A DNA stretch of 64,000 nucleotides from NCBI GenBank assembly GCA_016937345.1, contig JAFGWE010000044.1, forward strand, positions 1 through 64,000, in the 5' to 3' direction. The stretch is from Methanomicrobiaceae archaeon. Its GTDB lineage: Archaea; Halobacteriota; Methanomicrobia; Methanomicrobiales; Methanomicrobiaceae. Position numbers and translations under genes: made by a program. The notes below the pieces were generated by a model. The model was given only the letters and a program-made list of their open reading frames with translations, did no database searches and was not told the DNA's origin. Positions 6,547 to 63,695 of the stretch are shown here, piece by piece; the first letter of the stretch is position 1; every line of letters begins with the position of its first letter.

Positions 6547-6572
6547 CCGGATTAAATGTATGGGGCATTCTG

Positions 6573-36924: not shown

Positions 36925-36928
36925 AATC

Positions 36929-38682: not shown

Positions 38683-39398
38683 AACTCCTGAAAACGGTCT
38701 TATTAACAACAGATACCTCTCACCATCTATATTACGCATCTGTTATTAATGAGACATTTCCATGGGCGGCAATACTTGCAGAAACAAAAAAAATTAAGCC
38801 TCCCTTTGAGACTGATCATCCTTTTGAAAAAATTAGAGATGATTATGAAAAGGATGTGTTACTTAAAGGAAAAGAACAACGTTTTGCCGAAATATCACAT
38901 ACAGAAATATATAATGATTTAAATAGTGATGAAGCAATGTCCAGTCTTAAAGCAATATCTCCGGATCTCATAATAGTTTTTGGTACCGGAAAAATTGATC
39001 CACGTATAATCAGCACTGCAAAACTGGGCTGCTTAAATCTACATGGCGGAAATCCCGAACACTACCGTGGCCTTGACACTCACATGTGGGCAATATATCA
39101 CAGTGATTTTAATAATCTGGTAACAACTCTTCATCATTTAGACAGTACATTAGATACAGGAGATTTAATTTTTCAGGCCCAGTTACCTTTAACAAAAGAT
39201 ACTAAAATTTACCAGATAAGATCCATTAACACAGAAATATGTGTTGAAATCTCAATAATTGCACTACATGTTATTAATAGTGGCAAAAAACTGCCCTGCA
39301 GAAAACAGGTTTCAACGGGTAGATATTATTCATTCATGCCTGGAATTCTTAAAGATGAGTGTGTAAGAAAATTTGAGGGTTATGTGGCAGATTTATGA
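38679..39398 (+). CDS. Sugar N-formyltransferase
   Basis: 239 residues of the methionyl-tRNA/GART formyltransferase fold. The catalytic triad is in place: Asn120 and His122 in LNLHGGNPEHYRG and Asp159 in HLDSTLDTGD. It transfers a formyl group from 10-formyl-tetrahydrofolate or, in a methanogen, perhaps a formyl-tetrahydromethanopterin-like donor to an amino sugar. Immediate neighbours are neuB copy 1 and a deacetylase, so an N-formylated nonulosonic acid or amino sugar is the likely product (inference). The donor question is interesting because methanogens use tetrahydromethanopterin rather than folate for most C1 transfer. Confidence 0.85.
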   Translation: MKLLKTVLLTTDTSHHLYYASVINETFPWAAILAETKKIKPPFETDHPFEKIRDDYEKDVLLKGKEQRFAEISHTEIYNDLNSDEAMSSLKAISPDLIIVFGTGKIDPRIISTAKLGCLNLHGGNPEHYRGLDTHMWAIYHSDFNNLVTTLHHLDSTLDTGDLIFQAQLPLTKDTKIYQIRSINTEICVEISIIALHVINSGKKLPCRKQVSTGRYYSFMPGILKDECVRKFEGYVADL

Positions 39399-40300: not shown

Positions 40301-40318
40301 TATTGGAGATTTATTAAT

Positions 40319-42151
40319 ATGTGTGGAATTGCAGGATATTTTGGCCTTGAAAAAATACCCCCAGAACGAATAGAGAATTGTTTAAATCTTATGAACCGGC
40401 GTGGTCCGGATAACGCTGCCCATAAAAAATGGATTAATTCAAGTGGAAGAAATGTATATCTGCTTCATACAAGACTAAGCATTATAGATCTTGATCCCAG
40501 AGCAAATCAGCCATACAATATTGGTGATAAATGGATAATCCTCAATGGAGAATTATATAATTATCTGGAGAGACGAGAGGAATTAACAGATAAAGGAATA
40601 AATTTTTTCACTAATTCTGACACAGAAGTATTACTAAGTTCTATTGAACACTTTGGCTGGGATGTACTTAACCGGTGTGAAGGGATGTGGGCCTTTGCTG
40701 TTTACAATGAAACTGAGGGTTCACTTACACTCTGCCGGGACAGATTCGGAGAAAAACCATTATATATCTATCAGGATAAAACCGGCTTTTATTTTGGCTC
40801 AGAAGTAAAATTCATAATGGCCCTATTAAACAAAAAATTAAAGCCAAATCAGAATCACCTTTTACGCTATCTTGTAAACGGATATAAAGCAATCTACAAA
40901 TACGAAGATACTTTTTTTGAAGGATTAACAGAGTTAAAACCAGCAAACCTGCTACATATTTCCTCAGATGGAGAGGAAAATAAAAGCAGGTACTGGGAAT
41001 TAAAGTACTGCCCTGAAGAGGAGATGAGCTATCAGCAAGCAGTTGAAGGTGTACAGGAAAGGCTCATAAAAGCTGTGGAAATACGACTCAGGGCTGATGT
41101 TCCACTTGCTTTCTGTATGAGCGGAGGAGTAGACTCAAATTCTCTTATTAGTATTGCAAAAAACAATTTTGACTATGATGTCCACGGTTTTACGATTGTA
41201 AATACCGATGAAAGGTACGAAGAGCAGGATATGGTGGAATATGCTGTTGAAAATTTAAATATTCGCCATACCTCTGTTCAGGTCAACACAAGTGATTTTT
41301 TAGAGAAACTCAGAATCCTTGTCAGACAGCATGATGCTCCTGTCTATACCATAACATATTATGCCCACTGGCTACTTATGGAATCCATTGCTGAACATGG
41401 TTACCGCATTTCAGTCAGCGGAACTGGGGCAGATGAATTATTCACCGGTTATTATGACCATCACCTCATGTATCTGAATGAGGTGAAAAACGATCCTGAG
41501 TTATATTCAATTGCAAAAGAAGCATGGACAGAACATATAAAACCAATAGTTCGCAATCCGTATTTAAGCAATCCGGAATTATTTATCCAAAACCCGGATT
41601 TCCGAGACCATATATTTCTGGATGCAGATGAATTCAGGAAATCACTGCTGGTTGACTGGTCTGAAAACTTTACAGAAACAAAATATTGCGACAGTGTATT
41701 AAGAAACCGTATGATGAATGAGTTATTTAATGAGAGTGTCCCCGTCATACTCCATGAAGACGATCTTAATGCAATGTTCTTCTCAATTGAAAACAGATCG
41801 CCGTTTATGGATCGGCACCTCGCAGAATTCTGTTATAAAATACCAAGCAGGTACCTTATTCGTGAGGGTGCAGCAAAAGCTATCCTAAGAGATGCAATGA
41901 GCGGTATTGTACCGGATAAAATTATTGAAAACAGAAGAAAAGTTGGTTTTAATGCTCCTGTGTTCTCATTTCTGGATGTTCACGACCCAAATGTAAGAAA
42001 ACAGTTGCTTGAAGAAAGCCCGGTTTATGATTATATTCGCCGCGAAAAGATAGAAGAACTCATCAACAAACCGTTTCTGGGTAACAGTGAAAGCAAATTT
42101 TTATTTTACTTTATCAATTGTAAAATATTCATGGAGGAGTTCGCAGAATGA
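40319..42151 (+). CDS. asnB: Glutamine-dependent asparagine synthase-like protein (AsnB)
   Basis: 610 residues. The N-terminal glutaminase domain begins with the catalytic MCGIAGYFG (Cys2 as nucleophile after Met removal) and has RGPDNA and LNGELYN; the C-terminal synthetase has the PP-loop MSGGVDSNSL near residue 268. In surface-glycan clusters AsnB homologues often amidate a uronic-acid carboxylate rather than aspartate. With the UDP-sugar dehydrogenase in the same operon, a uronamide product is plausible. It ends four bases inside the WbpG-like gene. Confidence 0.88.
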   Translation: MCGIAGYFGLEKIPPERIENCLNLMNRRGPDNAAHKKWINSSGRNVYLLHTRLSIIDLDPRANQPYNIGDKWIILNGELYNYLERREELTDKGINFFTNSDTEVLLSSIEHFGWDVLNRCEGMWAFAVYNETEGSLTLCRDRFGEKPLYIYQDKTGFYFGSEVKFIMALLNKKLKPNQNHLLRYLVNGYKAIYKYEDTFFEGLTELKPANLLHISSDGEENKSRYWELKYCPEEEMSYQQAVEGVQERLIKAVEIRLRADVPLAFCMSGGVDSNSLISIAKNNFDYDVHGFTIVNTDERYEEQDMVEYAVENLNIRHTSVQVNTSDFLEKLRILVRQHDAPVYTITYYAHWLLMESIAEHGYRISVSGTGADELFTGYYDHHLMYLNEVKNDPELYSIAKEAWTEHIKPIVRNPYLSNPELFIQNPDFRDHIFLDADEFRKSLLVDWSENFTETKYCDSVLRNRMMNELFNESVPVILHEDDLNAMFFSIENRSPFMDRHLAEFCYKIPSRYLIREGAAKAILRDAMSGIVPDKIIENRRKVGFNAPVFSFLDVHDPNVRKQLLEESPVYDYIRREKIEELINKPFLGNSESKFLFYFINCKIFMEEFAE

Positions 42152-43266
42152 AATATTGCAGCAGGTGCATCCTTCCGGACACAAGGCCCAACCTTTCACT
42201 TGATTCCAAAGGAATATGCAATGCATGCCGGGCACATGAATCCCGCCCAGTAATTGACTGGGTCAAAAGAGAAAAGGCCTTTTTAAATGTTGTTGAAAAT
42301 GCAAAAAAAAGAAGCGAAGGATATGACTGTCTTATACCAGTGAGCGGCGGAAAGGATAGCACCTGGCAGGTAGTAAAATGTCTCGAATACGGACTCACTC
42401 CTCTTGCCGTCACATGGAAAACACCTGCCCGGACAGAGATAGGGGCAAAGAATCTTGCCAATCTGATTTCATTAGGTGTAGATCATATAGATTATCAGAT
42501 CAATCCAAAAGTGGAGAGAAAGTTTACTTATAAGTCATTAATGCAATATGGATCATCAGCAATCCCGATGCACATGGCATTATTTAATATCCCTTTGAAA
42601 ATCGCGGTTAAATTTAATATACCGCTTGTTATCTGGGGTGAGAACTCTGCTTTTGAGTATGGAGGAACAGAGGAAGAACGTACCGGATTTCGCCTGGACA
42701 GCAAATGGTTAAAAAAATACGGAATTACTCACGGAACAACGGCAAAAGACTGGATATCACCAGAGCTTTCAAGAAAAGAATTAACTCCGTATTTTGGACC
42801 GTCTGACGATGAAATGGAAAAGAGCGGAGTTTTGGCAGTATTTCTGGGTTATTATTTTCCCTGGGATCCAGAGATCACATTTGATGCTGCAAGATCACAT
42901 GGTTTTCAGGTACGAAAAGAAGGTCCTAAAACAGGATATTATGACTACGCAGACATAGATGACGATTTTATATCTATTCATCACTGGTTAAAATGGTACA
43001 AATTTGGTTTCACCAGATTATTTGATAATCTGTCTTTAGAGATTCGTAATGGCAGAATAACCCGTGAAAAAGCCATTCAGATTGTAAAAGAATACGGCGA
43101 ACAGACACCATATGAAGATATAAATAAATTCTGTAAATTTATCGGAATTACCACTGAACAATTCTTTTCGGAAATAGAGAAATTTCGAAATCCTGATATC
43201 TGGGTTAAAAAAGACGGTAAATGGATGATCAAAGATTTTATTATACCTGAATGGAGATGGCAATGA
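42148..43266 (+). CDS. WbpG/PseA-type N-acetyl sugar amidotransferase, copy 1
   Basis: 372 residues. A zinc knuckle (C4, C7, C24, C27 in CSRC and CNAC) precedes the PP-loop ATPase motif SGGKDS (residues 66-71). Members of this family turn an acetamido group into an acetamidino group using ammonia from a HisH-HisF-like complex. This copy has no adjacent hisH/hisF; it would need the pair at 62,132-63,695 or free ammonia from AsnB directly upstream. Overlaps of four bases tie it to both neighbours. Confidence 0.88.
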   Translation: MKYCSRCILPDTRPNLSLDSKGICNACRAHESRPVIDWVKREKAFLNVVENAKKRSEGYDCLIPVSGGKDSTWQVVKCLEYGLTPLAVTWKTPARTEIGAKNLANLISLGVDHIDYQINPKVERKFTYKSLMQYGSSAIPMHMALFNIPLKIAVKFNIPLVIWGENSAFEYGGTEEERTGFRLDSKWLKKYGITHGTTAKDWISPELSRKELTPYFGPSDDEMEKSGVLAVFLGYYFPWDPEITFDAARSHGFQVRKEGPKTGYYDYADIDDDFISIHHWLKWYKFGFTRLFDNLSLEIRNGRITREKAIQIVKEYGEQTPYEDINKFCKFIGITTEQFFSEIEKFRNPDIWVKKDGKWMIKDFIIPEWRWQ

Positions 43267-49589: not shown

Positions 49590-50420
49590 TTATTCCTGAT
49601 GAACATGGAGTTTATGCTCTAATTCTAAAATTACTGATGAAATAATATCAGCTCCATGTTTTTCGCAACATTTTCTTGCCCACTCAATATGTACTCCTTC
49701 AATTATAACAGGAACAGCCTCAAAATCAAGCAAATCGGCAATTAAAACCCGGTGTGTCCCCCCCATACCTAAGATAAGATCTCCCTCACGGCCAACTGAG
49801 ATCCTTATTTCATCAATACTATTATGCTGTCTTTTATCAACCTTTGTCAGATCACTGGCTTTAAGTTCTTCCTGAGTCCTGTACTGGTTGTTTTTTAAAG
49901 AATCATATAATGAATATAAAATATTGAAATATTCATCAATATCTTTGATGCTTTTACACCAATATGCAGGTTCTCCCTTTTCAATCAATTCCCTCATCTC
50001 AAGATATTGATCACATTTTTTATAATCAATTTTATCAACAAATAACTGGTTAATTGTCACAATTGTCGTCTGTCGCAGATTTTTCTTAGAAGTGTCCCTT
50101 AAAGGCGTGCAACAAATATCCCAGTCACCATCAAGAACAAACCGGTGAAGATTTGTCACCCCTTCATCCCACCACCCCTGATTCAGACTGTTTTTTATTG
50201 CTTTTGGACGAACTCTGGTCATATAAAAACTATGATAAGCAAAATCAATGCTTAGATCTGGTCTGGGGAGTAATTTTTTTTGAGCATTAAATCCACTGCC
50301 AAACATAAGAGAGAAAACATAACAACAGAATAACAAATTTCTTAATCTATTTTCCCCAAAAATCTTTTTTAAAGTAGATTTAAAAAAAGGACCCTTTTTT
50401 TTGTGCCAAGAAATATTCAT
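49590..50420 (-). CDS. ParB/sulfiredoxin-fold protein in the glycan island
   Basis: 276 residues. The C-terminal segment at about 203-240 (IDEIRISVGREGDLILGMGG, then THRVLIADLLDFEAVPVII) has the layout of the ParB/sulfiredoxin-like nuclease or kinase fold: a charged strand, G-x-G-G-THR turn, helix and VPVII strand. The first 55 residues are basic with a hydrophobic stretch (LLFCCYVFSLMF) that could touch the membrane. Proteins with this fold occur in archaeal and bacterial polysaccharide clusters and some relatives act as small-molecule kinases; function here is unknown. It is convergent with the large operon and 68 bases downstream of the sulfotransferase. Confidence 0.55.
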   Translation of the reverse strand: MNISWHKKKGPFFKSTLKKIFGENRLRNLLFCCYVFSLMFGSGFNAQKKLLPRPDLSIDFAYHSFYMTRVRPKAIKNSLNQGWWDEGVTNLHRFVLDGDWDICCTPLRDTSKKNLRQTTIVTINQLFVDKIDYKKCDQYLEMRELIEKGEPAYWCKSIKDIDEYFNILYSLYDSLKNNQYRTQEELKASDLTKVDKRQHNSIDEIRISVGREGDLILGMGGTHRVLIADLLDFEAVPVIIEGVHIEWARKCCEKHGADIISSVILELEHKLHVHQE

Positions 50421-50488: not shown

Positions 50489-51490
50489 CTAATAACCAAG
50501 TTCCTCAAGTTCGGTGAAATCTCTTTCAAGGTACTCTGCCAGTTCCCGGTTAAACGGGTTGCAATACGATCTAATTTCAGAGGCAAGTTCATCGCTCAGG
50601 GTGAATTCTTCAGGTCTTGGGCTTACAAAAGGATGCTTTAAAGAATTATATGATTTTTTAACAACCTCATACAGTTTTTCATGTTTCTGAATTATGTTAA
50701 CCAATTCTGGCCAGAAAAAATCCCTTTTACTTATTGACCATTCCTGGTTACTGATACTACGGGAATTTTCACGATTTCTGACTGTCGAACTATAATCTTC
50801 AGATTCAAAAGGAAGCTCACTCCACTCTGCTATTGTTTTCCAATAGGCATCAGAATTCATTTCTTCTAAAAGCACTACATAAATATTATCCTTTCCAGCA
50901 ATACGCTCCAGATCATGAACCAGTTTTCCCCAGTTAAAGCATCCTCCTTTATTGACAGAGTCATCACTCATCAAAAGGCGTACTTTCTGTTCAAAATCTT
51001 CTTTAGAGGCACCTTTAATAGTAGTGGAATCTTTTGCATAAAGTGATCCCAACCATTCAGGCTGATTTCTGAGGGTCACAAGCACTTTGATTTTAGAAAT
51101 CCAAGGGCAGGCTTTTAGCATCATCTCTAAATGGAGTGACACAGGAAAATACCCCATGTCTTTCTGTGAAAATGCAGATAAACCTTTTTTACGGAAAAAA
51201 AACGGCCTTGAAAAGGCATTCTGACTTATAAGAAACGGTTTCCCGGAGGTTTTGCAACATGCAGCCTTTAAATTATCTACTACTTTTTTGCCCTCGGTTT
51301 CATTCCAGACAGAAAAATCACAATCCTGAAAAACATGGACCATTTCGTCCATCAATGTCTCTTTCCATTCTTCTGTTGAATATGGAGTTAGAGTATTGCT
51401 AAACTGACTGAAAAATCTTCTTTGTAATGACGTAGTGCCTGTCCTTGACAGCCCTATATGAATTATCAGGGTATCTGTTATTGCATCCAT
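50489..51490 (-). CDS. PAPS-dependent sulfotransferase
   Basis: 333 residues. The 5'-phosphosulfate-binding loop is GLSRTGTTSLQRRFF (residues 13-27), and the 3'-phosphate-binding strand and helix are around LVTLRNQPEWLGSLYAKD (near residue 140). No signal or membrane segment, so it acts in the cytoplasm on a sugar nucleotide or lipid-linked glycan. Sulfated surface glycans are known in other archaea, chiefly haloarchaea. A decayed copy of its first 75 codons and its promoter region is found at 55,743-56,105. ATG 51,490 is used. Confidence 0.85.
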   Translation of the reverse strand: MDAITDTLIIHIGLSRTGTTSLQRRFFSQFSNTLTPYSTEEWKETLMDEMVHVFQDCDFSVWNETEGKKVVDNLKAACCKTSGKPFLISQNAFSRPFFFRKKGLSAFSQKDMGYFPVSLHLEMMLKACPWISKIKVLVTLRNQPEWLGSLYAKDSTTIKGASKEDFEQKVRLLMSDDSVNKGGCFNWGKLVHDLERIAGKDNIYVVLLEEMNSDAYWKTIAEWSELPFESEDYSSTVRNRENSRSISNQEWSISKRDFFWPELVNIIQKHEKLYEVVKKSYNSLKHPFVSPRPEEFTLSDELASEIRSYCNPFNRELAEYLERDFTELEELGY

Positions 51491-51650
51491 TTTTTTGTAA
51501 CTTCCTATAGAGATGTATCAAAGTTGCTCATTTTTTTCATTATATATCTTGTCTGAAGTTATTGAATATAACGTAATAATACAGATAAGTAAAAAAACTT
51601 ATTATAGCTTCTCTCAAATAATATCCATAATGCGTTGTTATGATTGCTTT
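51365..51650 (-). repeat. Direct repeat copy A: sulfotransferase 5' end and upstream region
   Basis: This segment matches 55,743-56,105 in the same orientation, both inside the coding start and for about 120 bases upstream. Shared stretches include TCTTCTGTTGAATA, TAACTTCCTATA and ACTTATTAT. The upstream part (51,491-51,650) probably includes the sulfotransferase promoter. Here the coding copy is intact. Confidence 0.8.
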
Positions 51651-51677
51651 TTACCAAGCTAATTTTTGCTTTTTATT

Positions 51678-52073
51678 TCATGGAATGGATTTTTTTATTT
51701 TTACCGGATTGCCAAATGCAATTACATTTGGAGGAATATTTTTATTGATAAAACTGAGAGCCCCCACCACTGAATTCTCACCGATCTCAATGCCCGGCAT
51801 AACTACACTATTCGCACCAATTTTACAGTTTTTCCTGAGAACAACTTCACCTTTTTTATTATCTATTGTAGATTCCGAATAAATAGAACAATGAGATCCA
51901 ATTTGTACGAAGTCCTCAATTATTACACCATATTTTGCATTTATGTACGTAAAGGCACCGATGTCTGTCTTATACCCAAGTTTGAGCCCTTCTTTGTTTT
52001 GAACTAGCCAGTTATATATTGTGAGTTTCCCGTCCTCAATTACAGGATAATCCCAGTTTTCAAATCTCATCAA
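51678..52073 (-). CDS. Left-handed beta-helix (hexapeptide) acyltransferase, NeuD/WbbJ-like
   Basis: 131 residues with hexapeptide repeats (GAFTYINAKYGVIIEDFVQIG, then CKIGANSVVMPGIEIGENSVVGA), ending GNPVKIKKSI, typical of O- or N-acetyltransferases. Shorter than NeuD, it lacks the N-terminal nucleotide-sugar-binding Rossmann part. The gene overlaps the PIG-L deacetylase by four bases, so a deacetylation and re-acylation pair is likely. Two ATGs begin the frame (MM); the second is equally possible. Confidence 0.82.
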   Translation of the reverse strand: MMRFENWDYPVIEDGKLTIYNWLVQNKEGLKLGYKTDIGAFTYINAKYGVIIEDFVQIGSHCSIYSESTIDNKKGEVVLRKNCKIGANSVVMPGIEIGENSVVGALSFINKNIPPNVIAFGNPVKIKKSIP

Positions 52074-52729
52074 AATACCTCACGGACGAGGGAGAAAGAT
52101 TCAGCATACCTAACTCCTATCTCACTACCTCTTTTCTTTGCCAGAGCCTCTATAGCCTCAATTGAACGTGGATGAGGAAATTCTTTAAGTTCAGTTCTGT
52201 ATGCATTAATTGCCTCTGTTTTTTTCTGGAAAGTCTCAGTTATGTCTGAAAATACATTTGGAATATATGGTGTAATCGGTTGCCCCCATTCGGTTTCTGA
52301 CAAGGTTTCATATGCAAGTATTTTTTTTACATTACAATGAAACGGCCGCATTGCAACAAGTGAAGATTCAAAAATTATGCGGTGATCGCGATGAAGATCT
52401 CCTTTATATGGAATATACGCAATATCGGGCTGAACTTTCCTGATAACAGCAGAAAATTTCTCATTAATGTCCTTTTGGGGAATTGTATCAAGTTTCACGG
52501 TGTGGTAACCAAGTTCAATCACTTCATCAAAGCCAAGAATCTTAACTGCATTATCTATTTGCTCATTACGGACACGGATATATTCATCAGACCAGTCGGG
52601 TTTGTGGGCTGTTGTTACGATACAGAGTGTCAGGTGATCTCCTGAAAGACAATGTTTTGCAATTGTTCCACCGCAGCCAAGGGTCTCATCATCCGGATGA
52701 GGTGCTATGACTAAAATTTTTTTTGACAT
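52070..52729 (-). CDS. PIG-L family N-acetylhexosamine deacetylase
   Basis: 219 residues. The zinc-binding motif APHPDDETLGCGG at residues 9-21 and HRDHRII near 115 are those of the GlcNAc-PI/GlcNAc-malate deacetylase superfamily. It removes an N-acetyl group from a sugar or sugar nucleotide. Lying between neuC and the acyltransferase, it may swap the N-substituent of the sugar on the way to the NeuB copy 2 product. Only two bases separate it from neuC. Confidence 0.9.
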   Translation of the reverse strand: MSKKILVIAPHPDDETLGCGGTIAKHCLSGDHLTLCIVTTAHKPDWSDEYIRVRNEQIDNAVKILGFDEVIELGYHTVKLDTIPQKDINEKFSAVIRKVQPDIAYIPYKGDLHRDHRIIFESSLVAMRPFHCNVKKILAYETLSETEWGQPITPYIPNVFSDITETFQKKTEAINAYRTELKEFPHPRSIEAIEALAKKRGSEIGVRYAESFSLVREVF

Positions 52730-52731: not shown

Positions 52732-53886
52732 TTAGTAGGTTATTTCCTTTACCATTAATTTATTGTTGATCTCAATTTCAGCCAGTACAGAGGCAATTTT
52801 CTCAGATGCATACCCATCACCATATGGGTTGCTGCAGTTTCTGCATTTCTTAATATGATCTTCATCATAAAGGGACTTATTTATTTTTTCAAGAATATCA
52901 GTTTCATTATATTCTGCATGCAGGACATTCTCGGCTCTCTCTCTTCCTTTCTGTCTGCTCCCGATATCAACAACAGGTGTTCCAAAGAAAGGCGATTCTA
53001 TTAAAGCACTGCTTGAATTGCCTATGAAAAGGTCAGAGCATTTCATCAAATTCAAAAAGTCTTTATGGTTTATATTCTTAAATGTCTTAAGAAATTCAAA
53101 TTTCTCAAATTCCTTAATGACACTTATCATTTCTTTGCTGCCCATATCTGAATTAGGGTAAACAAGCAATGTCTGGATGTTTACTTCTTTTAATGCATTC
53201 AGTGTTTTTATCAGCTGCTCTCCTGCATGACTATATTCATACGTGACAGGATTTTGAACCAAGAGTATCATCTTTTTTTCAGGATTCAATCCATATTTTC
53301 TAAAAATATCTGCTTTATTGGAAAATAAAGTCTGATTTATAATATCAACAACCGGAGATCCAACATAAAATGTTCTGAAATTTTCCTCTCCGAGATTCAG
53401 AAGTCTTTCATGACTTTCTTTTGATACGGGAAAATGAATGTGGGCAATTTTTGAGACAGCATGCCTTATTGAGTCATCTGCATGCCCGCCTGCTGATTTA
53501 TCTCCACCATGAATATGTGCGATGGGAATATTCATGTAAATAGCAGCGACTGAGGCTGCAAGAACCTCACAGCGATCCCCTACAATTAAGATTATGTCAG
53601 GTTTTATCTGCTGAAATGCCTGGGACAGCCCCATAATACCAATTCCGGTGGACTTGGCCATTGTACTTCCTCCGGAACCATCAAGTGTCATTTCAACGAC
53701 AGCGCCAATTGGGAATCCATCTGAATAAATTTCATCTATGGTATGACCATGTTGTTCTGAAAGATGCATCCCAGTCACAATAAGAGAGAGCTTTAGATCG
53801 CTGTTTTTTTCAATTTCCAAAAGAACAGGACGTAAGATTCCATATTCTGAACGGGAGCCGGTAATTGCGCAAATATTTCGGGTCAT
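52732..53886 (-). CDS. neuC: Hydrolysing UDP-GlcNAc 2-epimerase, NeuC/LegG-like
   Basis: 384 residues. Converts a UDP- or GDP-HexNAc to free ManNAc-type sugar and NDP. The GT-B-like fold shows GSRSEYGILRPVL at the start (SGTRADYG-like), HIHGGDKSAGGHADDSIRH in the middle (catalytic His and Asp) and GNSSSALIESPFFGTPVVDIGSRQKGRERAENV at the C-terminus, the signature of hydrolysing epimerases rather than the non-hydrolysing WecB type. Its product is the direct substrate of a NeuB-type synthase, and neuB copy 2 is two genes upstream. Confidence 0.92.
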   Translation of the reverse strand: MTRNICAITGSRSEYGILRPVLLEIEKNSDLKLSLIVTGMHLSEQHGHTIDEIYSDGFPIGAVVEMTLDGSGGSTMAKSTGIGIMGLSQAFQQIKPDIILIVGDRCEVLAASVAAIYMNIPIAHIHGGDKSAGGHADDSIRHAVSKIAHIHFPVSKESHERLLNLGEENFRTFYVGSPVVDIINQTLFSNKADIFRKYGLNPEKKMILLVQNPVTYEYSHAGEQLIKTLNALKEVNIQTLLVYPNSDMGSKEMISVIKEFEKFEFLKTFKNINHKDFLNLMKCSDLFIGNSSSALIESPFFGTPVVDIGSRQKGRERAENVLHAEYNETDILEKINKSLYDEDHIKKCRNCSNPYGDGYASEKIASVLAEIEINNKLMVKEITY

Positions 53887-53901: not shown

Positions 53902-54681
53902 TTATTTATGTGCCAGTATTCCATAAACTTCTTTTGTCAGGGTAAATCCTCCTGAAGAATTCATATTTTCAGAGGCTTTCTCCTTAAACTTCTGTACAAG
54001 TTTTTCTCTGATATTCTCGTCAGTGTTTTCTTTAAAAGAAAGTGTTGCACAAGTATATTTTATGAATTCCTCCATAGAAGGAAAATTAATGGGGTTTTTA
54101 AAAATCTCTACTTCAACACTGTTGAATTTTTTTTTGATTTCAGGAATTATCTCAGAATCCATCCTTTTCTCTCTTTTCTGAGAGATTTTTTGCCTTGTAA
54201 CTTCCTCATATATGTCAAGCATTTCACGGGCATTGTTTACAGTGGGACCTGCAACAAAAAATTTGCCGCCGGGTTTAAGTACCCGAAAGATTTCTGAAAG
54301 GACTTCCCGGATATCCTGCACATAATAAATACCAAATGCACATGTGACTATGTCAAAAGTATTTTCTAAAAATGGCAGTTTTTGATTAATATCTCGGCAA
54401 TGGTAGCTAATTTTAATATTTTCGGATTCTGCAATTTTTACGGCCTCATTCAGGAGTTCTGCAGAAATATCCATTGCATCAACACTTCCTTTACCGGATA
54501 ATATCTTCGCATACCTCAGTGATTGTTTACCATTACCACAGCAGAGATCAAGTATTTTTTCATCTCCTCTGAAATTGATTTTCTCAACGATCCAATCGTC
54601 AATATCATACATTGCATATTTATTATGAGCATTAATACGTATCTGAAGTGAATCTTCAACATAACTCCAGTGATTATTCAT
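53902..54681 (-). CDS. SAM-dependent methyltransferase next to neuB copy 2
   Basis: About 259 residues. Motif I is ILDLCCGNGKQSL (near residue 42), with VDAMDISAEL, CAFGIYYVQDIREVL and VLKPGGKFFVAG following, all class I. I use ATG 54,681, which overlaps the neuB stop (ATGA) and has GGGAGGAT as ribosome binding site. It may N-methylate an amidino group, as proposed for PtmH in the Campylobacter legionaminic variant, or O-methylate the sugar; the amidination module is 6 kb upstream. Confidence 0.82.
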   Translation of the reverse strand: MNNHWSYVEDSLQIRINAHNKYAMYDIDDWIVEKINFRGDEKILDLCCGNGKQSLRYAKILSGKGSVDAMDISAELLNEAVKIAESENIKISYHCRDINQKLPFLENTFDIVTCAFGIYYVQDIREVLSEIFRVLKPGGKFFVAGPTVNNAREMLDIYEEVTRQKISQKREKRMDSEIIPEIKKKFNSVEVEIFKNPINFPSMEEFIKYTCATLSFKENTDENIREKLVQKFKEKASENMNSSGGFTLTKEVYGILAHK

Positions 54682-55742
54682 ATAATATCCTCCCATTTTA
54701 TCTGTTCATCATAAATTAAATTTCTCTGAGCCTTCTTACCTGCAATCTCATTTAAGTATTCAGGAGGGATCCCGTTTCCAGGTCTTTTTAATTTTAGATC
54801 TTTTTCCCTGACAACTTCTCCTTTATGAATATCTCTTCCTGCAACAATACTCTTTCTTGCTACGAGTATTATCTTCTTTTCTTCTTCAGTTCTTTTTTTA
54901 ATACCTGTTCCAATTGCTTTTTCAACATTTCTTATTGCCTGTATCATTTCTTTTAATTCAGAAGGGTCAAGTGAGGCCTTATGATCCGGTCCTAAAAGAG
55001 ATTTATCAAGCGTAAAATGTTTCTCAATTACAGCTGCCCCCATTGCTGCTGCAGCTATAGGAATTGTAACTCCTATTGTATGATCTGAGTAGCCTACGGG
55101 AAGTCTGAAAGAATATTTCATAGTATTCATTGCAGAAAGATTTACACTTTCAAATGCTGCAGGATAGGATGTTGTACAATGAAGAATTACAATATTCTCG
55201 GAACCATTTTTCTTCAATGTTACAACTGCCTTTTCAACTTCACAAAGTGTTGACATTCCGGTAGAGAGAATGACAGGTTTTCTGTTCTTTGCAATTAATT
55301 TAAGGAGAGGAAGATTCGTAATTTCCCCAGAAGATATTTTATATGCCGGAATTCCAATCTCTTCCAGAAAACTGGCACTCTCTTCATCAAAAGGGGTAGA
55401 TAAGAAAATTAGATTCTTTTCCTTTGTATAGTCTGATAACCGCCTGAAATCCTGATACGACAGTTCAAGTTTTTTCAGCATATAATACTGAGATTCATCT
55501 TCCGATGTCGATTCTATTTGGTAATCAGCTTTTTCCGCATTTTTTGACGCTAGAGATTCGGCCCTAAATGTCTGGAATTTCACGGCATCAGCACCCGATT
55601 CTGCAGCTACATCTACCAGCTGCTTTGCCAGGTTTAAATTACCATTATGATTTACACCGGCCTCGGCAATGATAAAACATTTTTCGCCTTCTCCGATTTT
55701 TTTATCTCCAATATAAAATGAACTTTGCAAAGTTAATCCCAC
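54678..55742 (-). CDS. neuB: NeuB-family nonulosonic acid synthase, copy 2
   Basis: 354 residues. TIM barrel with FIIAEAGVNHNGN (residues 23-35), AVKFQTF, FLSTPFD, ILSTGMST, VGYSDHTIG, and the canonical substrate loop GPDHKASLDP; the C-terminal SAF domain starts near 290 with ARKSIVAGRDIHKGE and KRPGNGIPP. This looks like a sialate/legionaminate-type synthase and differs from copy 1. Start is GTG 55,742; its AAAGGAG ribosome binding site lies about 55,750, inside the decayed sulfotransferase copy. No ATG is available before the IIAEAG segment, though a TTG four codons later is possible. Confidence 0.92.
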   Translation of the reverse strand: MGLTLQSSFYIGDKKIGEGEKCFIIAEAGVNHNGNLNLAKQLVDVAAESGADAVKFQTFRAESLASKNAEKADYQIESTSEDESQYYMLKKLELSYQDFRRLSDYTKEKNLIFLSTPFDEESASFLEEIGIPAYKISSGEITNLPLLKLIAKNRKPVILSTGMSTLCEVEKAVVTLKKNGSENIVILHCTTSYPAAFESVNLSAMNTMKYSFRLPVGYSDHTIGVTIPIAAAAMGAAVIEKHFTLDKSLLGPDHKASLDPSELKEMIQAIRNVEKAIGTGIKKRTEEEKKIILVARKSIVAGRDIHKGEVVREKDLKLKRPGNGIPPEYLNEIAGKKAQRNLIYDEQIKWEDII

Positions 55743-55969
55743 CTTTAGCAGCTCCTTTACCTTTTTACTCCCTGAATAGTTCCAGACAAAATGATTACAC
55801 CATCCTGAAAGAAAAGATCAGCCCATCAATCAAAATTTTTTCCAGTCTTCTGTTGAATAGGACATTAAAGTATTATCAAACCCAGGTCATAAAATCTCTT
55901 TTGTGATTACGTATTCTCGGTGCATGATAACTCTATGTGATTAATCAAGGAATTTATTGTTTTCGCCAT
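55743..55969 (-). pseudogene. Decayed 5' fragment of a sulfotransferase gene
   Basis: Reading from a former ATG at 55,969 in one frame gives MAKTINSLINHIELSCTENT, then stops are mixed with further similarity: SQKRFYD and FFQDGVIILSGTIQGVK. Against the intact sulfotransferase (MDAITDTLIIHIGLSRTGTT, SLQRRFF, VFQDCDFSVWNETEGKK) this is a clear co-linear match of the first 75 or so residues, with at least four in-frame stops. The match ends exactly at the start codon of neuB copy 2. So the gene was broken here and its tail replaced. Confidence 0.85.
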
Positions 55970-56105
55970 TTTTTATAACTTCCTATAAAGATATATTAAA
56001 AGCGCTCAAACTTTTTCGGCATATATTTTGTATAAAGTTACTGGATATAATGTTATTATACATATATTAAGTCAAATAAACTTATTATTGCTCCTCTCAG
56101 AGCAT
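55970..56105 (-). repeat. Direct repeat copy B: upstream region of the sulfotransferase relic
   Basis: Matches 51,491-51,650 in order and orientation, including TAACTTCCTATA, GATATAATG against GAATATAACG and ACTTATTAT. The conservation of this non-coding part is as good as that of the broken coding part, suggesting a fairly recent duplication or that the region still works as promoter for neuB copy 2. Confidence 0.75.
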
Positions 56106-56448
56106 ATCAACGATACACATGTAATAATTAATTTTTATTAATACGAAATATCTCCTCATAATAAGCACAATGTATGAGATTTGATCATGCATGGCTTTTT
56201 TTTCCCGGAGTCTCAAACACCGGAAACCATTTGCTTGCATCAGTTACACATAGCATAACTGATTCTATAAATATTAACTCTATATTATGTGTTATTTTTA
56301 TCTGTCTCGGCATAATTTGTCTATAGTATTCAGACATTTTTTGATGCCATACCTCTAGCCGTCTTACAAAAGGAATTGACGAAATAATCCTAATATTGCC
56401 AATCAAATTTCGGGGAAGGTCAATTTTTCAGACCTCCTATTTATTGAA
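56106..56448. other. Non-coding stretch with a doubtful 73-codon frame
   Basis: This 343-base stretch lies between the sulfotransferase relic and the radical SAM gene. The only notable open frame is 56,185-56,406 on the minus strand (73 codons, ends in WFPVFETPGKKSHA); it has no clear ribosome binding site and no recognised similarity. It may be another gene fragment left by rearrangement. Otherwise the stretch is AT-rich with no strong signals. Confidence 0.4.
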
Positions 56449-57849
56449 TTAACTTTGCCTGAAACCTCTAAAATCGCTATTCTGATTCAAATATAATTCT
56501 TTTGCCATATCAATTATTTTTGCTTTTTGATGAGTATAATAATTCTCTATTAATTTTGCGTTTGCCTCATACAATGACTCATAATACTCAGCGTCACTCA
56601 TATCTGTAAAATTCACAGTCAACAGATCAGAATTGGTGTGTTTATTCTCATAGAAATCCTCACAGTCCTTAATCATACCTTTTTCAATTGCATAGTAATA
56701 CAATGGAGAACCCGGATACGGGGTTACAGGGCGAATTGTCCTGAACTGAGCGTGGTCATCATATTTGAGTATGAAATCCACTCCTTTTCCCAGTATTTCC
56801 TTTGTCTCTCCAATATTACCAAATATAATATTGAACCCGGGACTTATTCCTGCAGCAAGAGTATTTTCTATTCCACTTACTATCTGTCTGACAGTGAGCT
56901 TTTTGTTCATATTTTTAAGTGCAACATCATCCATAGATTCTATACCATAATTAATGAATACACAACCTGCTTTTTTCATTATATCCAAAACATCCGGCTT
57001 TGCATAGTTCAGACGTCCGTTACATTCCCATGTAACATCCAAATTTGCATTAATGAAATTATTACAAAGCTCAATTGTTCTTTTATTGGAGCTCATAAAT
57101 AATTCATCGGCAAAGGATATATGAGATATATTGTAATCCTTCTTTAAGATCTCAATCTCCTCAATAATACTCTCAGAGGAACGTGGTCGAAAACCTTTAT
57201 CCATACGATAACAAAAATTACAATTAAATATACAACCCCTGCCCGACAGTACTGGCATACACCTATCTGCGTTTTTCATATTAGGCAACCTGATCAATGC
57301 ATAATGATCAATAGGAAATAAATCCCATGCAGGCAGAGGTATGCTGTCCACATCCTCAATAAGCTCTCTTTCTTCCGTAATTATACATCTATTATTGTCA
57401 TCTAAATAAGCCAGCCCTTTGACAGTACTTAAAGAAGTATTCAGTCGTATTGCATCTAAAAACTCCACAACTGTCAGTTCTCCCTCTCCTAGTACAATTG
57501 CGTCTGCTTTTGTTTTCCGCAGAAAATATTCAGGATCAGGTGATACCAAATGACCACCCAACCATAATGGTGGACGATTATCTGACTGATTTATGGCATC
57601 ACATAGTTTCAATATTTTTCTATATTGATAATATCCCCCACAGGCACCCAATCCAATCGCATCAAATTGGTTTCTGTTGAGATATTCCAACAGATGTTCT
57701 TCAGTATAATGGTAAACATCCTGATTGTATATGGTCACATCATGACCTGCATTTCTACATGCAGATGCGATATATGCTATTCCCTGTGGAAACCAAGAAA
57801 CATATGAATCGTTATCATAAACAACTAAAAGTATTTTCATAATATTCAC
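56449..57849 (-). CDS. B12-binding-type radical SAM protein
   Basis: 466 residues. N-terminal Rossmann-like B12-binding-type domain (1-140, GIAYIASACRNAGHDV, LGEGELTVVEF) but without the DxHxxG cobalt-ligating histidine motif. The radical SAM core follows with the [4Fe-4S] cysteines in GCIFNCNFCYR (CxxxCxxC, near residue 207), then a C-terminal domain. Class B radical SAM methylases and other sugar- or lipid-modifying enzymes share this layout. In this operon it could C-methylate or rearrange a sugar. A second ATG at 57,840 is an alternative start. Confidence 0.82.
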   Translation of the reverse strand: MNIMKILLVVYDNDSYVSWFPQGIAYIASACRNAGHDVTIYNQDVYHYTEEHLLEYLNRNQFDAIGLGACGGYYQYRKILKLCDAINQSDNRPPLWLGGHLVSPDPEYFLRKTKADAIVLGEGELTVVEFLDAIRLNTSLSTVKGLAYLDDNNRCIITEERELIEDVDSIPLPAWDLFPIDHYALIRLPNMKNADRCMPVLSGRGCIFNCNFCYRMDKGFRPRSSESIIEEIEILKKDYNISHISFADELFMSSNKRTIELCNNFINANLDVTWECNGRLNYAKPDVLDIMKKAGCVFINYGIESMDDVALKNMNKKLTVRQIVSGIENTLAAGISPGFNIIFGNIGETKEILGKGVDFILKYDDHAQFRTIRPVTPYPGSPLYYYAIEKGMIKDCEDFYENKHTNSDLLTVNFTDMSDAEYYESLYEANAKLIENYYTHQKAKIIDMAKELYLNQNSDFRGFRQS

Positions 57850-57857: not shown

Positions 57858-58931
57858 TTAATTTTTTTCTTCCTCATCTCTTCCTTCAATCAACCCGAGT
57901 TCCTGTAAAAGAACGCCAATTTCCCCTCTGTTTAGTAAACGTGTATCCATAGAAGAAAATTTATCTCTCTCCGTGATCTGAAATCCAGGGAGTATTAGTT
58001 TACCAGGGAAATTATCTGAATAAGGTATTTTTTTGGGATATACAATATACATATCCTCATTTTCATATGCACAGTTGGTCTCATCGAGAATCATAAGTTC
58101 CTCGTCTATCTTCTCTCCAATCCTCATGCCAACAATATCAATAGGAATATCCTCGGGATTAATACCACACTGTGGAGAGAGTAAAGAACGCATCTCCTCT
58201 GCAAGATCCATGATGAGTGCCGCTGGCATCTTCAAAATAAATACCTCACCACCTCTGGACAATAATCCCGCTTTGAGAATAAGCTGGGCTGCAGATGGAA
58301 TATCCATAAAAAAACGTCTCATATCGGGATGAGTAACAGTTATCGGACCACCTTTCTTAATCTGTTTTTCAAACAGGGGGATAACAGAACCTCGTGAATT
58401 CAAAACATTTCCGAAACGTACACATGAAAATATTGTTTTTTTGGCTCCAAGATATGTACCGTGATAACTGTTTGCTGCAATAGTAAGCCGTTCTGCAAGG
58501 AGTTTTGTTGCTCCCATTACATTTGATGGGTTTACAGCTTTATCCGTACTAATGGTAATTACTTTTTCTACTCCCTGGTCATATGCGGCATCAAGTACAT
58601 TTTGCGTCCCGATAACATTTGTCTTCACCGCATCAAAAGGATTGAACTCACACAGAGGAACATGTTTAAGCGCTGCTGCATGGAAGACAATATCCACACC
58701 CTCCATTGCAACGTTAAGCCGTTCTTTATCCCTTATATCGCCAATTAAAAGGCGAATTTTACCTGACATCAACGATTGTTCTAGATCAAATAGACCTGTC
58801 TCATTATTATCAAATACACGAATGCTTTTAGGCTCAAACTTCAGAAGCTCCCTGACTAAAAAACTCCCTATTGAACCTACTCCACCTGTTACAAGAATTG
58901 TCTTTCCATAATAAAAATCAGCAATATCCAT
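57858..58931 (-). CDS. CapD/WbpM-like UDP-GlcNAc 4,6-dehydratase (soluble form)
   Basis: 357-residue extended SDR. Rossmann motif GGVGSIGSFL (residues 16-25), ISTDKAVNPSNVMGATK with the SMK type catalytic set (Met in the place of Tyr, Lys four later) characteristic of WbpM/FlaA1 dehydratases, and RFGNVLNSRGSVIPLF. It lacks the N-terminal membrane domain of WbpM and CapD, so it is the short FlaA1/PseB form. Product: a UDP-4-keto-6-deoxy-HexNAc, which the adjacent aminotransferase (0-base gap) would convert to a 4-amino sugar. It is the second 4,6-dehydratase of the island, besides the LegB-like enzyme. Confidence 0.9.
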   Translation of the reverse strand: MDIADFYYGKTILVTGGVGSIGSFLVRELLKFEPKSIRVFDNNETGLFDLEQSLMSGKIRLLIGDIRDKERLNVAMEGVDIVFHAAALKHVPLCEFNPFDAVKTNVIGTQNVLDAAYDQGVEKVITISTDKAVNPSNVMGATKLLAERLTIAANSYHGTYLGAKKTIFSCVRFGNVLNSRGSVIPLFEKQIKKGGPITVTHPDMRRFFMDIPSAAQLILKAGLLSRGGEVFILKMPAALIMDLAEEMRSLLSPQCGINPEDIPIDIVGMRIGEKIDEELMILDETNCAYENEDMYIVYPKKIPYSDNFPGKLILPGFQITERDKFSSMDTRLLNRGEIGVLLQELGLIEGRDEEEKN

Positions 58932-60059
58932 TTAATTCACCAAATAATAATCTGCTATGGCCTGAACCACCGTATACACATCTTCATGAGGCATCCCAGG
59001 GTATATAGGCAGGCTGACAATTTCTTTTGCTACTCTTTCAGTAACAGGTAATGATGTCTGATATCCAAGTTCATGGCGATAGTAATGAGTTAAATGCACA
59101 GGATCAAAGTAAATTTTACTCATGATTCCATTTTCTGTCAGAAACTGCATCAATCCGTCCCTATCTGGAACACGAACTGAAAATAACTGATGAACATGCA
59201 TATATCCATCCGGAGCTGCCAGAATCGAAATTTCAGGCACTTTTTCTGATAAGAGATTTGTATACAATCCAGCAATAATTTTTCGCATTTTTATTATCCG
59301 TTCTACCTTTCGCAACTGAGAGATTCCTAATGCGGCTGTAATATTTGACATCCGAAAATTATATCCAAGCGCTACGTAATCCATTACAGCAGTGGTCGAG
59401 AAGTAATCAGCAGTCTCCAAACGTCCATGAGATCTTATGAGTTTCATCTTCTCATATAATTCCCGTGAATCAGTAACGATAGCCCCACCTTCTCCGGTGG
59501 TTATAATTTTATTCTGGCAGAAACTCATCATTGCCGAGTCTCCAAAAGTTCCTACCTTTTTCTCTCCGACTGCTGCACCAAATGCCTCTGCTGCATCTTC
59601 AATCATGATAATATTGTTGTCATCTGCAATCTCTCTTAATTCTTCTATTCTGCATGGACAGCCACCATAGTGTACCGGCATAATTGCTCTTGTCTTAGGT
59701 GTAATTTTATTAATTACATCATCAGGATTAAGGCCTAAGGTTTTCTCTTCAATATCTGCAAAAACAGGTTTTGCTCCGACAACACGGGATGCATTAGCAG
59801 TTGAGATGAATGTAAATGAAGGAGTGATTACCTCATCACCACCCCCAATACCATGGGCAATTAAGGCAGCGTGAGTTGCGGATGTTCCTGAGTTAAACAT
59901 CAAACAGTAATCCGTACCAATATAAGATGCCACACTCTCCTCAAATTTGGAGATATTTTCACCTACAGCCCAGTTCATACCCGAGCGTATTGTATCGCTT
60001 ACCAAATTGACATCATCGTCATCCCAGTACATTTTAAAAAGCGGTATTTTCCATGTCAT
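58932..60059 (-). CDS. DegT-family UDP-4-keto-sugar aminotransferase (LegC/PseC/PglE-like)
   Basis: 375 residues. PLP-dependent. PLP phosphate loop FNSGTSATHAAL, cofactor-ring aspartate in IEDAAEAFGA, and the Schiff-base lysine in SFCQNKIITTGEGG (near residue 187). It follows the classical ArnB/WecE fold and immediately precedes the 4,6-dehydratase, a gene pair that normally makes a 4-amino-4,6-dideoxy sugar. A 142-base spacer with a hairpin separates it from the cytidylyltransferase, so it may have its own promoter. Confidence 0.92.
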   Translation of the reverse strand: MTWKIPLFKMYWDDDDVNLVSDTIRSGMNWAVGENISKFEESVASYIGTDYCLMFNSGTSATHAALIAHGIGGGDEVITPSFTFISTANASRVVGAKPVFADIEEKTLGLNPDDVINKITPKTRAIMPVHYGGCPCRIEELREIADDNNIIMIEDAAEAFGAAVGEKKVGTFGDSAMMSFCQNKIITTGEGGAIVTDSRELYEKMKLIRSHGRLETADYFSTTAVMDYVALGYNFRMSNITAALGISQLRKVERIIKMRKIIAGLYTNLLSEKVPEISILAAPDGYMHVHQLFSVRVPDRDGLMQFLTENGIMSKIYFDPVHLTHYYRHELGYQTSLPVTERVAKEIVSLPIYPGMPHEDVYTVVQAIADYYLVN

Positions 60060-60170
60060 TTAATTTCCTCCAATCATTCGTTCAAATCAAATTCCCGAAG
60101 ACACTTCAAAGCTTTAACTGAAAATCCAAAACCAATGCAATTTTTTTGGAATGTCAAGATTAACAAAAAC

Positions 60171-60196
60171 ATAATAATTATTGATTTAATTATTAT
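60171..60196 (-). terminator. Hairpin and T-run after the NeuA-like gene
   Basis: Perfect 10-base inverted repeat (ATAATAATTA / TAATTATTAT) around a 6-base loop, with a T5 run following in the minus direction (60,165-60,169). It lies just beyond the cytidylyltransferase stop and resembles an intrinsic terminator splitting the cassette into 63,695-60,202 and 60,059-56,449. Confidence 0.5.
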
Positions 60197-60201
60197 CAAC
60201 C

Positions 60202-60932: not shown

Positions 60933-62132
60933 TTAGGCTACTTTATGCTTAAGTCGCCATTCTCCATCTATTTTCTCCCATAGGTGAGGTGACGCCACTC
61001 TGTATTTCTCAATAATGTCCCAGAATTTTTCTTCATCAATATCAAGATACTCAAGACTTTCTTTAAAATGTTTTGCAGGAAATTCTCCATCATATCTTTT
61101 AACAAGAGCAATGGCTTCCTCGCGTGTGATATGTCCATCCCGTATTTCATGAGCAGCGTCTGATGTTGCACGACCTATTCCAAATTTTATGAAACCCAGC
61201 CAATAATGTAAACCATCAAGCCTGTCATCAAGACTTGCATATTTTGAATATGTACCTTCTGAACGTCCCTCTGGATTGGCCTGAAAATTAGTATGTTCTG
61301 CGCAATAGTAATAATTTTCCTGAGGTACCCATTTTTGGTAGTATGAAAACCAGTGCATCTGAATTCCTTTACCCTTGATTTCATCAATCGGAGGTGGACG
61401 ATAAAATATTAAATCACTTTCAGTGAAATCATCTGATGTCAGGATGTTATTCGCAAGGCCCCAATTAACAAGATCATCCACTGTTGCACCTTTGAAATAA
61501 AGATCAGCCCAATCTTCAATTGGCATAAACGGGCGATAATTGTTTTTCGTTGAACCACCATATTCTGCTTCTCCGTTTTCTCCAAAAAATATCAGTTTTA
61601 TATCAAATTTTGTGGCAATATGAAATGCGAATGACATCTGACCATAAATGAATGGAAGAAACGGATCCCCCACAGTCTCGAGACCAATACGGGCCAATTT
61701 CCTATGAAGATGTCCATTAGGTGTACCAAGAATATTTGAAAAACCGGATTTTATGAAATCCTGAAAGTTCTGCCAGCCAATGTCTGTATACATGAATGGG
61801 GACCATGTTACGGTCAAAGGATGCATTCCATACTCATGCTTTAATTTATGTGCGACAAATGCACTGTCTTTACCACCACTTGCAGGTACGATAATATCAT
61901 ATTCACCGTTATCCTTGCGATAAGTATCACAAAGTTCCTGCAATAATTTTTCACGCTCGTTCCAGTCAATTACATTCTTTTTTTCATAGGCAAACTGACA
62001 GGCAGAGCAGACACCGTCTTCATTAAAAGTAAGTCTTGGACGCTGATTTGATAGCACACAATTCTTACAGAAGAACACGTCTTTGGGACGATTTTCAAAT
62101 TGTTTATCGAGGATATTTTCCAACTTATCCAT
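60933..62132 (-). CDS. WbpG/PseA-type N-acetyl sugar amidotransferase, copy 2
   Basis: 399 residues. Zinc knuckle C22, C25, C42, C45 (CKNC and CSAC) and PP-loop SGGKDS at residues 85-90. Adenylates an acetamido oxygen and replaces it by ammonia, giving an acetamidino group. The ammonia should come from the HisH-HisF-like pair directly upstream; hisH ends on the first base of this gene. This complete WbpG-HisH-HisF triplet matches the bacterial modules that make acetamidino sugars and amidino-legionaminic or -pseudaminic acids. A C-terminal EKIDGEWRLKHKVA resembles the end of copy 1. Confidence 0.92.
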   Translation of the reverse strand: MDKLENILDKQFENRPKDVFFCKNCVLSNQRPRLTFNEDGVCSACQFAYEKKNVIDWNEREKLLQELCDTYRKDNGEYDIIVPASGGKDSAFVAHKLKHEYGMHPLTVTWSPFMYTDIGWQNFQDFIKSGFSNILGTPNGHLHRKLARIGLETVGDPFLPFIYGQMSFAFHIATKFDIKLIFFGENGEAEYGGSTKNNYRPFMPIEDWADLYFKGATVDDLVNWGLANNILTSDDFTESDLIFYRPPPIDEIKGKGIQMHWFSYYQKWVPQENYYYCAEHTNFQANPEGRSEGTYSKYASLDDRLDGLHYWLGFIKFGIGRATSDAAHEIRDGHITREEAIALVKRYDGEFPAKHFKESLEYLDIDEEKFWDIIEKYRVASPHLWEKIDGEWRLKHKVA

Positions 62133-62833
62133 TATATTCTATTATTGTTTTTAGTTCTATTATATTGTTCGATAATTCCAATGAAGTTTCTGTATACAGT
62201 AATTCCTGCTTTCCCACTTCTTTCAGGATGACACTGAAGACCAATTAAATTTCCCTTCTGAAATGCAGAGCAGAATTTGTAATTGCCATAACGCGTTGTA
62301 GCAATTATACCATCAGACAATTTAGGAGTAACATAATATGAATGATTAAAATACATGAACATTCCATCGGGTAAATTCTCCAGGATCGTCCCTTTCCAGG
62401 AATCAGATAACCCAGGTACTTTATCAATCCGATTCCAACCATTCTGTGGAACCTTTAGAGGAATTCCCCCATCAGAGGGATTTTGAAAACGTTCGACATG
62501 ACCTTCAATCAAGTTCAATCCAGCCCTATGCCCAAATTCTGTCCCATAAGTCATAAGTATCTGCATTCCGAGACATATGCCCAATATTGGTTTTTTTGAA
62601 TTTGCACTTTTTTTTAAAACATCAACCAGTGATAAGGATTCAAGAGTATCCATAGCATCCCCAAAAGCACCCATCCCAGGCAGAATAATAGCATCAGCAT
62701 TGTTTATCTCCTCCTGCGAGGAAGTCAGAAATCCATCCAAACCAACGTAGCTGCAGGCCTGTTTAATGCTGAAAAGATTTCCCATACCCATATCCACAAT
62801 TGCTACCGAAAATTTTTGGGGTTCAGATATCAT
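62132..62833 (-). CDS. hisH: HisH-like glutamine amidotransferase of the amidination module
   Basis: About 233 residues, class I glutaminase. The catalytic triad is complete: Cys in GICLGMQ, and His and Glu in LQCHPERSG. It releases ammonia from glutamine and passes it through HisF. Context (next to the amidotransferase, far from other his genes) shows that it is a glycan paralogue, as WbpX/HisH2 is in Pseudomonas. I choose ATG 62,833 because GAGG lies eight bases before it; other in-frame starts at 62,842 and 62,851 would lie further inside hisF. Confidence 0.9.
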   Translation of the reverse strand: MISEPQKFSVAIVDMGMGNLFSIKQACSYVGLDGFLTSSQEEINNADAIILPGMGAFGDAMDTLESLSLVDVLKKSANSKKPILGICLGMQILMTYGTEFGHRAGLNLIEGHVERFQNPSDGGIPLKVPQNGWNRIDKVPGLSDSWKGTILENLPDGMFMYFNHSYYVTPKLSDGIIATTRYGNYKFCSAFQKGNLIGLQCHPERSGKAGITVYRNFIGIIEQYNRTKNNNRI

Positions 62834-63695
62834 AATGGCCATCCTCTTCAATTCTACAGGAGATATTATTCTCTAAAAGAGAATTTTTTATCTCAGGTAT
62901 TGTTGCGCCTTCTACTTTTGTGATTTTTTTTATTCCTTTTAAAAATTCAATATTCCCTTCAGATGAATAATCTGCATCAAAGTAATTATTCTCAATATAA
63001 TTATAGTGAAGAATTGATGCCATACTAATTGCATCAGCATTACCATTTTTAATTACATCAGAAAAATGTCCCAGTTTTCCTGCTCCACCAGCAGCAATAA
63101 CCGGAATTGAAACAGCTTTTGAAACAGATTTAATAAGTTCTATATCATATCCAAGTCCAGTACCATCACGATCAATAGACATGAGATATATCTCACCTGC
63201 ACCTTTTTCCTCGGCTTTTTTTGCCCAATCCACAACATTGACTCCAGTTTTCTCCCTACCGTTATCAGTATAAGCTTCATATTCTCCGCTATTTTTCTTT
63301 TTTGCAGCAATTGATACAACAATTGTTGAGGATCCAAATTTATTGGCTGCATCTTTTATTAATGAGGGATTGTTTATTGCAGAAGTATTCAATGCAACTT
63401 TGTCTGCACCAGCCCTAAGAACTTTTTGAATATCCTCAACTGTTCTGAGCCCACCCCCCACTGTTAAGGGGATGAAAATCTCCTGAGAGGTTTTTTTTAT
63501 CATGTCTAAAAGACTGTTCCTCCCATAAAGACTTGCAACAACATCAATGTAGATGAGTTCATCAGCTCCGTTTTCATAATAATGACGGGCAAAAGTCTCG
63601 GGTTTTCCCAACACACGAAGACCTTCAAGGTGAACTCCTTTAACGAGATTAGGACCTTTTATATCAAGTCTGGGAATCACGCGAATATTGAACAT
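62823..63695 (-). CDS. hisF: HisF-like protein of the amidination module, catalytic Asp130 replaced
   Basis: 290 residues, (beta/alpha)8 barrel. VIPRLDIKGPNLVKG carries the Asp11 equivalent, and GADKV, GAGEIYLMSIDRDGTG and AAGGAGKLGHF match HisF. The second catalytic residue of true HisF, Asp130 in Thermotoga numbering, is Ala (VSIAAK, codon GCT), while the ammonia-gate residues Arg5, Glu46, Lys99 and Glu168 (Glu167 equivalent) are kept. It is about 35 residues longer than canonical HisF at the C-terminus (EGATIPEIKNSLLENN and EEDGHYDI). I infer that it channels ammonia to the amidotransferase and no longer makes imidazole glycerol phosphate. Confidence 0.9.
   Translation of the reverse strand: MFNIRVIPRLDIKGPNLVKGVHLEGLRVLGKPETFARHYYENGADELIYIDVVASLYGRNSLLDMIKKTSQEIFIPLTVGGGLRTVEDIQKVLRAGADKVALNTSAINNPSLIKDAANKFGSSTIVVSIAAKKKNSGEYEAYTDNGREKTGVNVVDWAKKAEEKGAGEIYLMSIDRDGTGLGYDIELIKSVSKAVSIPVIAAGGAGKLGHFSDVIKNGNADAISMASILHYNYIENNYFDADYSSEGNIEFLKGIKKITKVEGATIPEIKNSLLENNISCRIEEDGHYDI

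Follow-up and report, generated by a model that had tools for sequence, protein, structure and literature searches.

How did five sugar genes come to be bracketed by direct repeats of sulfotransferase DNA? The locus lies in the 64,000-nucleotide stretch of DNA analyzed here (the window), from a methane-producing archaeon of the family Methanomicrobiaceae, to which Methanogenium also belongs, and its genes form a cluster whose content points to nonulosonate (sialic-acid-type) sugars. The original prediction explained the bracketing as the birth site of a neuB-neuC cassette, through cassette insertion or an unequal exchange inside a surface-glycan locus. We compared the two repeat copies with each other, and the gene order between and around them with that of other genomes.

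The sulfotransferase repeat

The intact sulfotransferase (ST) gene and the two copies of the repeat are located as follows.

50489-51490, minus strand: intact ST gene, 333 aa (PF00685, E 5.3e-5)
51491-51653, minus strand: ST upstream region, which pairs with the non-coding part of the relic (162 aligned bases, 77% identity)
55758-56137, minus strand: ST relic and proposed duplication joint; about 55971-56137 copies the ST upstream region, and about 55758-55970 the first 63-70 codons

Local alignment matched the relic to the ST 5' region (51281-51653) with 73% identity (270 of 370 aligned bases). When scored more strictly, the pair reached 190, well above the background, for which the highest of 300 dinucleotide shuffles gave 34. 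A genome-wide search with the relic recovered only these two copies. The ST 5' region was its sole real match (E 5.9e-37), and the next match reached E 0.016. The recurrence of the ST 5' end and its upstream DNA, as first noticed by inspection, is thus real, and its boundaries have moved. The ST segment had been placed at 51365-51650 and the relic at 55743-56105. Both an upstream and a coding part are present, with the former measuring about 163 bp instead of 120 and the latter about 63-70 codons (68% identity) instead of 75. Both copies have the same orientation, as had been stated. They lie on the minus strand, with the ST ATG at 51490 and a spacing of 4477-4483 bp that holds five genes.

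The relic is disrupted, in agreement with the description of a segment full of stop codons. Its reading frame is broken by a stop where ST has codon 21 and by several frame-shifting indels, and single forward frames contain 3-7 stops. Where ST has the P-loop-like stretch HIGLSRTGTTSL, the relic reads HIELSCTENT*SQ, which identifies it as the decayed copy of the pair. The relic had been described as stopping at the GTG of neuB. It does lie close to neuB, but the match ends 16-38 bp short of that GTG (55742), which has its own ribosome-binding site (AAAGGAG). Identity by codon position was 73, 68, and 65%, respectively, and the difference between the upstream (77%) and coding (68%) parts was not significant (Fisher p 0.069); neither comparison was decisive as a test of constraint. 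No identical run in the alignment exceeds 14 bases. At this length and at 73% identity, recent or present-day excision between the repeats is unlikely. The identity of 73% also makes a misassembly unlikely.

ST itself passes the curated cut-off of PF00685 marginally, with 23.2 bits against 22. Like the hexapeptide acyltransferase gene (acylT), it occurs once in the genome. An ST relative that could serve as an outgroup to polarize the copies was found neither in 60 relatives or 394 genomes of the phylum nor in a scan of genome contigs, plasmids, viral contigs, and PDB sequences, all searches that remote sulfotransferases would escape. Three other genomes gave weak DNA matches to the region upstream of ST; these were short, AT-rich, and set in unrelated surroundings, and were treated as chance. 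The gene that follows ST (49590-50420) encodes a 276-aa protein that matched no Pfam or NCBIfam family and, like ST, has no relative in the related genomes searched.

Gene order in the window and in other genomes

The genes between the repeats, and those on the far side of the relic, are listed below.

51678-52073, minus strand: hexapeptide acyltransferase (acylT; PF00132), last gene of the displaced block
52070-52729, minus strand: PIG-L type deacetylase (PF02585)
52732-53886, minus strand: neuC, UDP-GlcNAc 2-epimerase (TIGR03568, 425 bits, cut-off 235.9)
53902-54696, minus strand: SAM methyltransferase (MT; PF13649/PF01209), between neuB and neuC
54678-55742, minus strand: neuB, N-acetylneuraminate/legionaminate-type synthase (TIGR03569, 495.1 bits, cut-off 399.65), first gene of the displaced block
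56449-57849, minus strand: B12-binding radical SAM protein (rSAM; PF02310 and PF04055)
57858-58931, minus strand: legB/PseB-like 4,6-dehydratase (PF02719)
58932-60059, minus strand: DegT aminotransferase, PseC/LegC-like by tree position (TIGR03588/TIGR04181 below their cut-offs), start of the other block
60060-60201, minus strand: neuA-DegT spacer with a likely acylT 3'-end remnant (strongest at 60136-60168, which reads F-V-N-L-D-I-P)

NeuB and NeuC both score above their curated cut-offs. Read along the strand, the order is hisF-hisH-amidoT-neuA-[DegT-legB-rSAM]-relic-[neuB-MT-neuC-PIG-L-acylT]-ST, so that neuB, the methyltransferase, neuC, PIG-L, and acylT are indeed bracketed by direct repeats of ST DNA. 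These five genes are tightly packed, with gaps of -19 to 15 nt. Among the 13 gaps of the run, the three longest are neuA-DegT (142 nt), rSAM-neuB (706 nt), and acylT-ST (187 nt), and the other ten are at most 68 nt. Between the relic and rSAM, 311 bp (56138-56448) contain a 73-aa ORF (56185-56406) for which no family and no similarity was found; this is possibly another decayed gene.

The usual order differs. In the twelve relatives that were fetched, it is neuA-neuB-neuC-(PIG-L)-acylT-DegT-legB. Among 199 genomes searched, 15 others carry this acylT, and in every one of them DegT follows it within 27-57 bp. In wider loci from archaea and bacteria, acylT was followed by DegT within 200 bp in 57 of 80, usually with legB next, and the remaining 23 differed. 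A woesearchaeal locus shows the blocks unswapped, reading hisH-amidoT-hisF-neuA-neuB-neuC-acylT-DegT-legB with rSAM next on the opposite strand; relative to the window, its hisF, hisH, and amidoT are ordered differently, and it carries neither MT nor PIG-L. Judged by these orders, the window holds the same genes with two blocks exchanged, and it is the exception among the order-level relatives carrying this acylT. By the same comparison, neuB-neuC-acylT is the leading half of a nonulosonate cluster that is old and widespread and that as a rule continues directly into DegT-legB. The claim of a cassette born at this site is not supported by the comparison. What is new at this locus is the swapped block order, not the neuB-to-acylT block itself. 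The proposal that the repeats arose by duplication or unequal exchange within a surface-glycan locus can be kept.

Several observations concern the wider history of these genes. In archaea and many bacterial phyla, members of the acylT family share 64-76% identity (230 confirmed stretches), which suggests wide horizontal exchange of this sugar module. A 100-genome search of relatives at E<=1e-40 gave no match to the window's MT outside its own genome. In a Nealsonbacteria MAG (positions 4507-7545 of the fetched locus), a methyltransferase (39%), PIG-L (50%), acylT (74%), and DegT are consecutive, and no other fetched locus apart from this one has a methyltransferase of the window's type next to PIG-L and acylT. 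In another locus (genome G312, 6084-8843), amidoT and hisF are 86% and 82% identical, respectively, to those at 60933-63695 of the window, and the rest of the two clusters is 40-63% identical, pointing to a separate, more recent transfer of a WbuX/Y/Z-like module. Elsewhere in the window (34715-43266, plus strand), DegT, SDR, N-acetyltransferase-like, formyltransferase-like, and WbuX-like genes accompany a second neuB (37675-38682). These genes suggest that the island also encodes a second pathway for a nonulosonate-type sugar.

Routes to the exchanged order

We consider it probable that neuB through the ST 5' end was duplicated in tandem, that the two copies then lost different halves, and that the relic is the duplication joint. 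The ancestor would have read neuA-[neuB-MT-neuC-PIG-L-acylT]-[DegT-legB-rSAM]-P-ST on one strand, where P is the ST upstream region. The tandem duplication would have cut ST off around codon 63-70 and fused it to the DNA that immediately precedes neuB. From copy 1, neuB to acylT would then have disappeared except for a fragment of the acylT 3' end in front of DegT, and copy 2 would have lost DegT-legB-rSAM. The outcome would be neuA-[DegT-legB-rSAM]-relic-[neuB...acylT]-P-ST, with one working copy of each gene, a swapped order, and a truncated, decaying ST 5' end as the mark of the joint. The relic, the swapped order relative to the relatives, and the unswapped order elsewhere are observed; the duplicated intermediate and the order of losses we infer.

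One tandem duplication with loss is sufficient to reach the window's order (A-B-P to B-p-A-P, where A is neuB to acylT and B is DegT-legB-rSAM). A remnant of the end of the duplicated segment is present at the new joint, where ST upstream DNA and truncated ST are directly joined to neuB, as expected of a duplication joint. The gaps of 142, 706, and 187 nt are the three places where the proposed losses and the joint would fall. The interval from acylT to ST yielded no trace of DegT, legB, or rSAM; only 24 nt separate the acylT stop from the repeat, and the relic's partner was all that was found there. The duplication-loss model allows complete loss, so this absence does not exclude it. Neither a duplicated intermediate nor a pre-duplication state with ST was seen among the genomes searched, which hold no ST relative.

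The spacer between neuA and DegT likely holds a second scar. Its motif F-V-N-L-D-I-P was first spotted by eye and tested afterward. It resembles the acylT consensus F-V-N-x-D-I-P and lies about as far from DegT as in relatives. When the gap was aligned, anchored, to 14 relatives, the summed score was -41 against -148 +/- 31 for shuffles. This sum was reached by 3 of 3000 shuffles, by 0 of 1500 GC-matched window stretches, and by 0 of 300 random stretches of relatives. Without gaps, seven relatives matched at 17 of 23 bases, with offsets of -6 to +1. When the whole window was searched blind with a profile for an acylT remnant, the hits were weak (E 0.7-12). Together, these alignments give moderate support to an acylT 3' remnant, not proof of one. 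Such a remnant before DegT suggests that the neuB-to-acylT genes once stood there.

Entry of foreign DNA is a less likely origin, although single-crossover integration of a circle would yield the same bracketing. Here, a donor with neuB to acylT beside a homologue of the ST 5' region would have recombined with the resident P-ST, duplicating P-ST, and the resident neuB-to-acylT genes would have been lost separately. The mixed nearest relatives within the locus are in keeping with this route. PIG-L is 80% identical to its counterpart in Methanogenium sp. MK-MG, where it stands directly before acylT-DegT-legB, and the window's DegT groups in its tree with the loci L062 and L064 (99/98). The donor, however, must already have had ST 5' DNA beside neuB, and the 394 genomes of the phylum yielded no ST relative; the loss of the resident block is also an additional event. 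AcylT is too short to place in a tree (p-AU 0.385-0.447 for the alternatives tried), and its data are compatible with a common history with DegT (p-AU 0.385). With DegT resolved and acylT not, the trees do not discriminate between duplication and insertion of foreign DNA, nor do they demonstrate a common source for the two blocks. Improbable in our judgment is an initial tandem duplication of ST, followed by transfer of neuB to acylT into the upstream one of the two ST copies, through a cut-and-paste or other illegitimate event that removed most of this copy. Such a history accounts for the truncated ST and the swapped block, but it would require that ST be duplicated in an event of its own, that the block be moved exactly at its gene boundaries, and that the vacated site be repaired, and no insertion sequence or transposase is found among the bracket genes. 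A cut-and-paste move alone would not duplicate ST DNA. Target-site duplications are far shorter than the diverged repeats of about 370 bp that flank neuB to acylT, and a cassette carried by a transposon or insertion sequence was rejected on this count and on the lack of a transposase among the bracket genes.

Why the relic persists is a separate matter. Its retention as the promoter of the neuB operon, derived from the ST upstream region, is a possibility that we rate as less likely than not. The greater similarity of the non-coding part (77%, against 68% for the coding part) is in its favor, and so is the 706-bp rSAM-neuB gap, the longest of the run, across which neuB may need a promoter of its own. 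Against it, that difference in identity falls short of significance, and a promoter scan found no excess over shuffles; the scan's consensus was that of bacterial sigma-70. More speculative still is the further step that capture of the ST upstream region as a putative promoter of the displaced neuB operon made the swap create a new transcription unit and change the regulation of the sugar pathway.

Comparable rearrangements and what the relic records

Tandem duplication with reciprocal loss would bring the window close to the tandem duplication-random loss described for mitochondrial gene orders (PMC5569537, PMC5975268). For mitochondrial genomes, it has been pointed out that reconstructing such events means looking for duplication remnants in the sequence (PMC5569537). 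Under the proposed history, the window would share with those genomes the tandem copying of one continuous block, the loss of surplus copies, a change of order without inversion, and remnants left at the breakpoints. The window differs in being an archaeal chromosomal sugar cluster in which, of the expected remnants, one is clear, one is moderate, and one is absent, and for which no intermediate was found. Salmonella O-antigen clusters also contain gene remnants, such as the wzy remnants of groups B1 and D1 (PMC3715488). Like the relic, these are decayed gene pieces in a surface-glycan cluster that record earlier states and recombination; they reflect loss of gene function in place or recombination between known serogroups, whereas the relic reflects a block swap. 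The archaeal legionaminic acid cluster of Halorubrum sp. PV6 groups LegB, LegC, LegG (NeuC homologue), LegI (NeuB homologue), LegF (NeuA homologue), and a NeuD homologue (PMC6137143). This type of pathway is therefore known in archaea. The gene order of the PV6 cluster is different from that of the window, and no sulfotransferase relic was reported for it.

Herein, the ST relic is most likely a clear, well-preserved fossil of an already known rearrangement process, not the birth of a new cassette. Surface-glycan loci reshuffle fast, and the steps are seldom visible. At this locus, a large remnant and a probable small one mark the breakpoints where two blocks changed places, in a cluster that archaea and bacteria normally keep in a conserved order. 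These remnants would make the path of duplicating and then losing different halves readable in a single genome. The case also calls for caution, as a repeat-bracketed block of sugar genes need not be an imported cassette.
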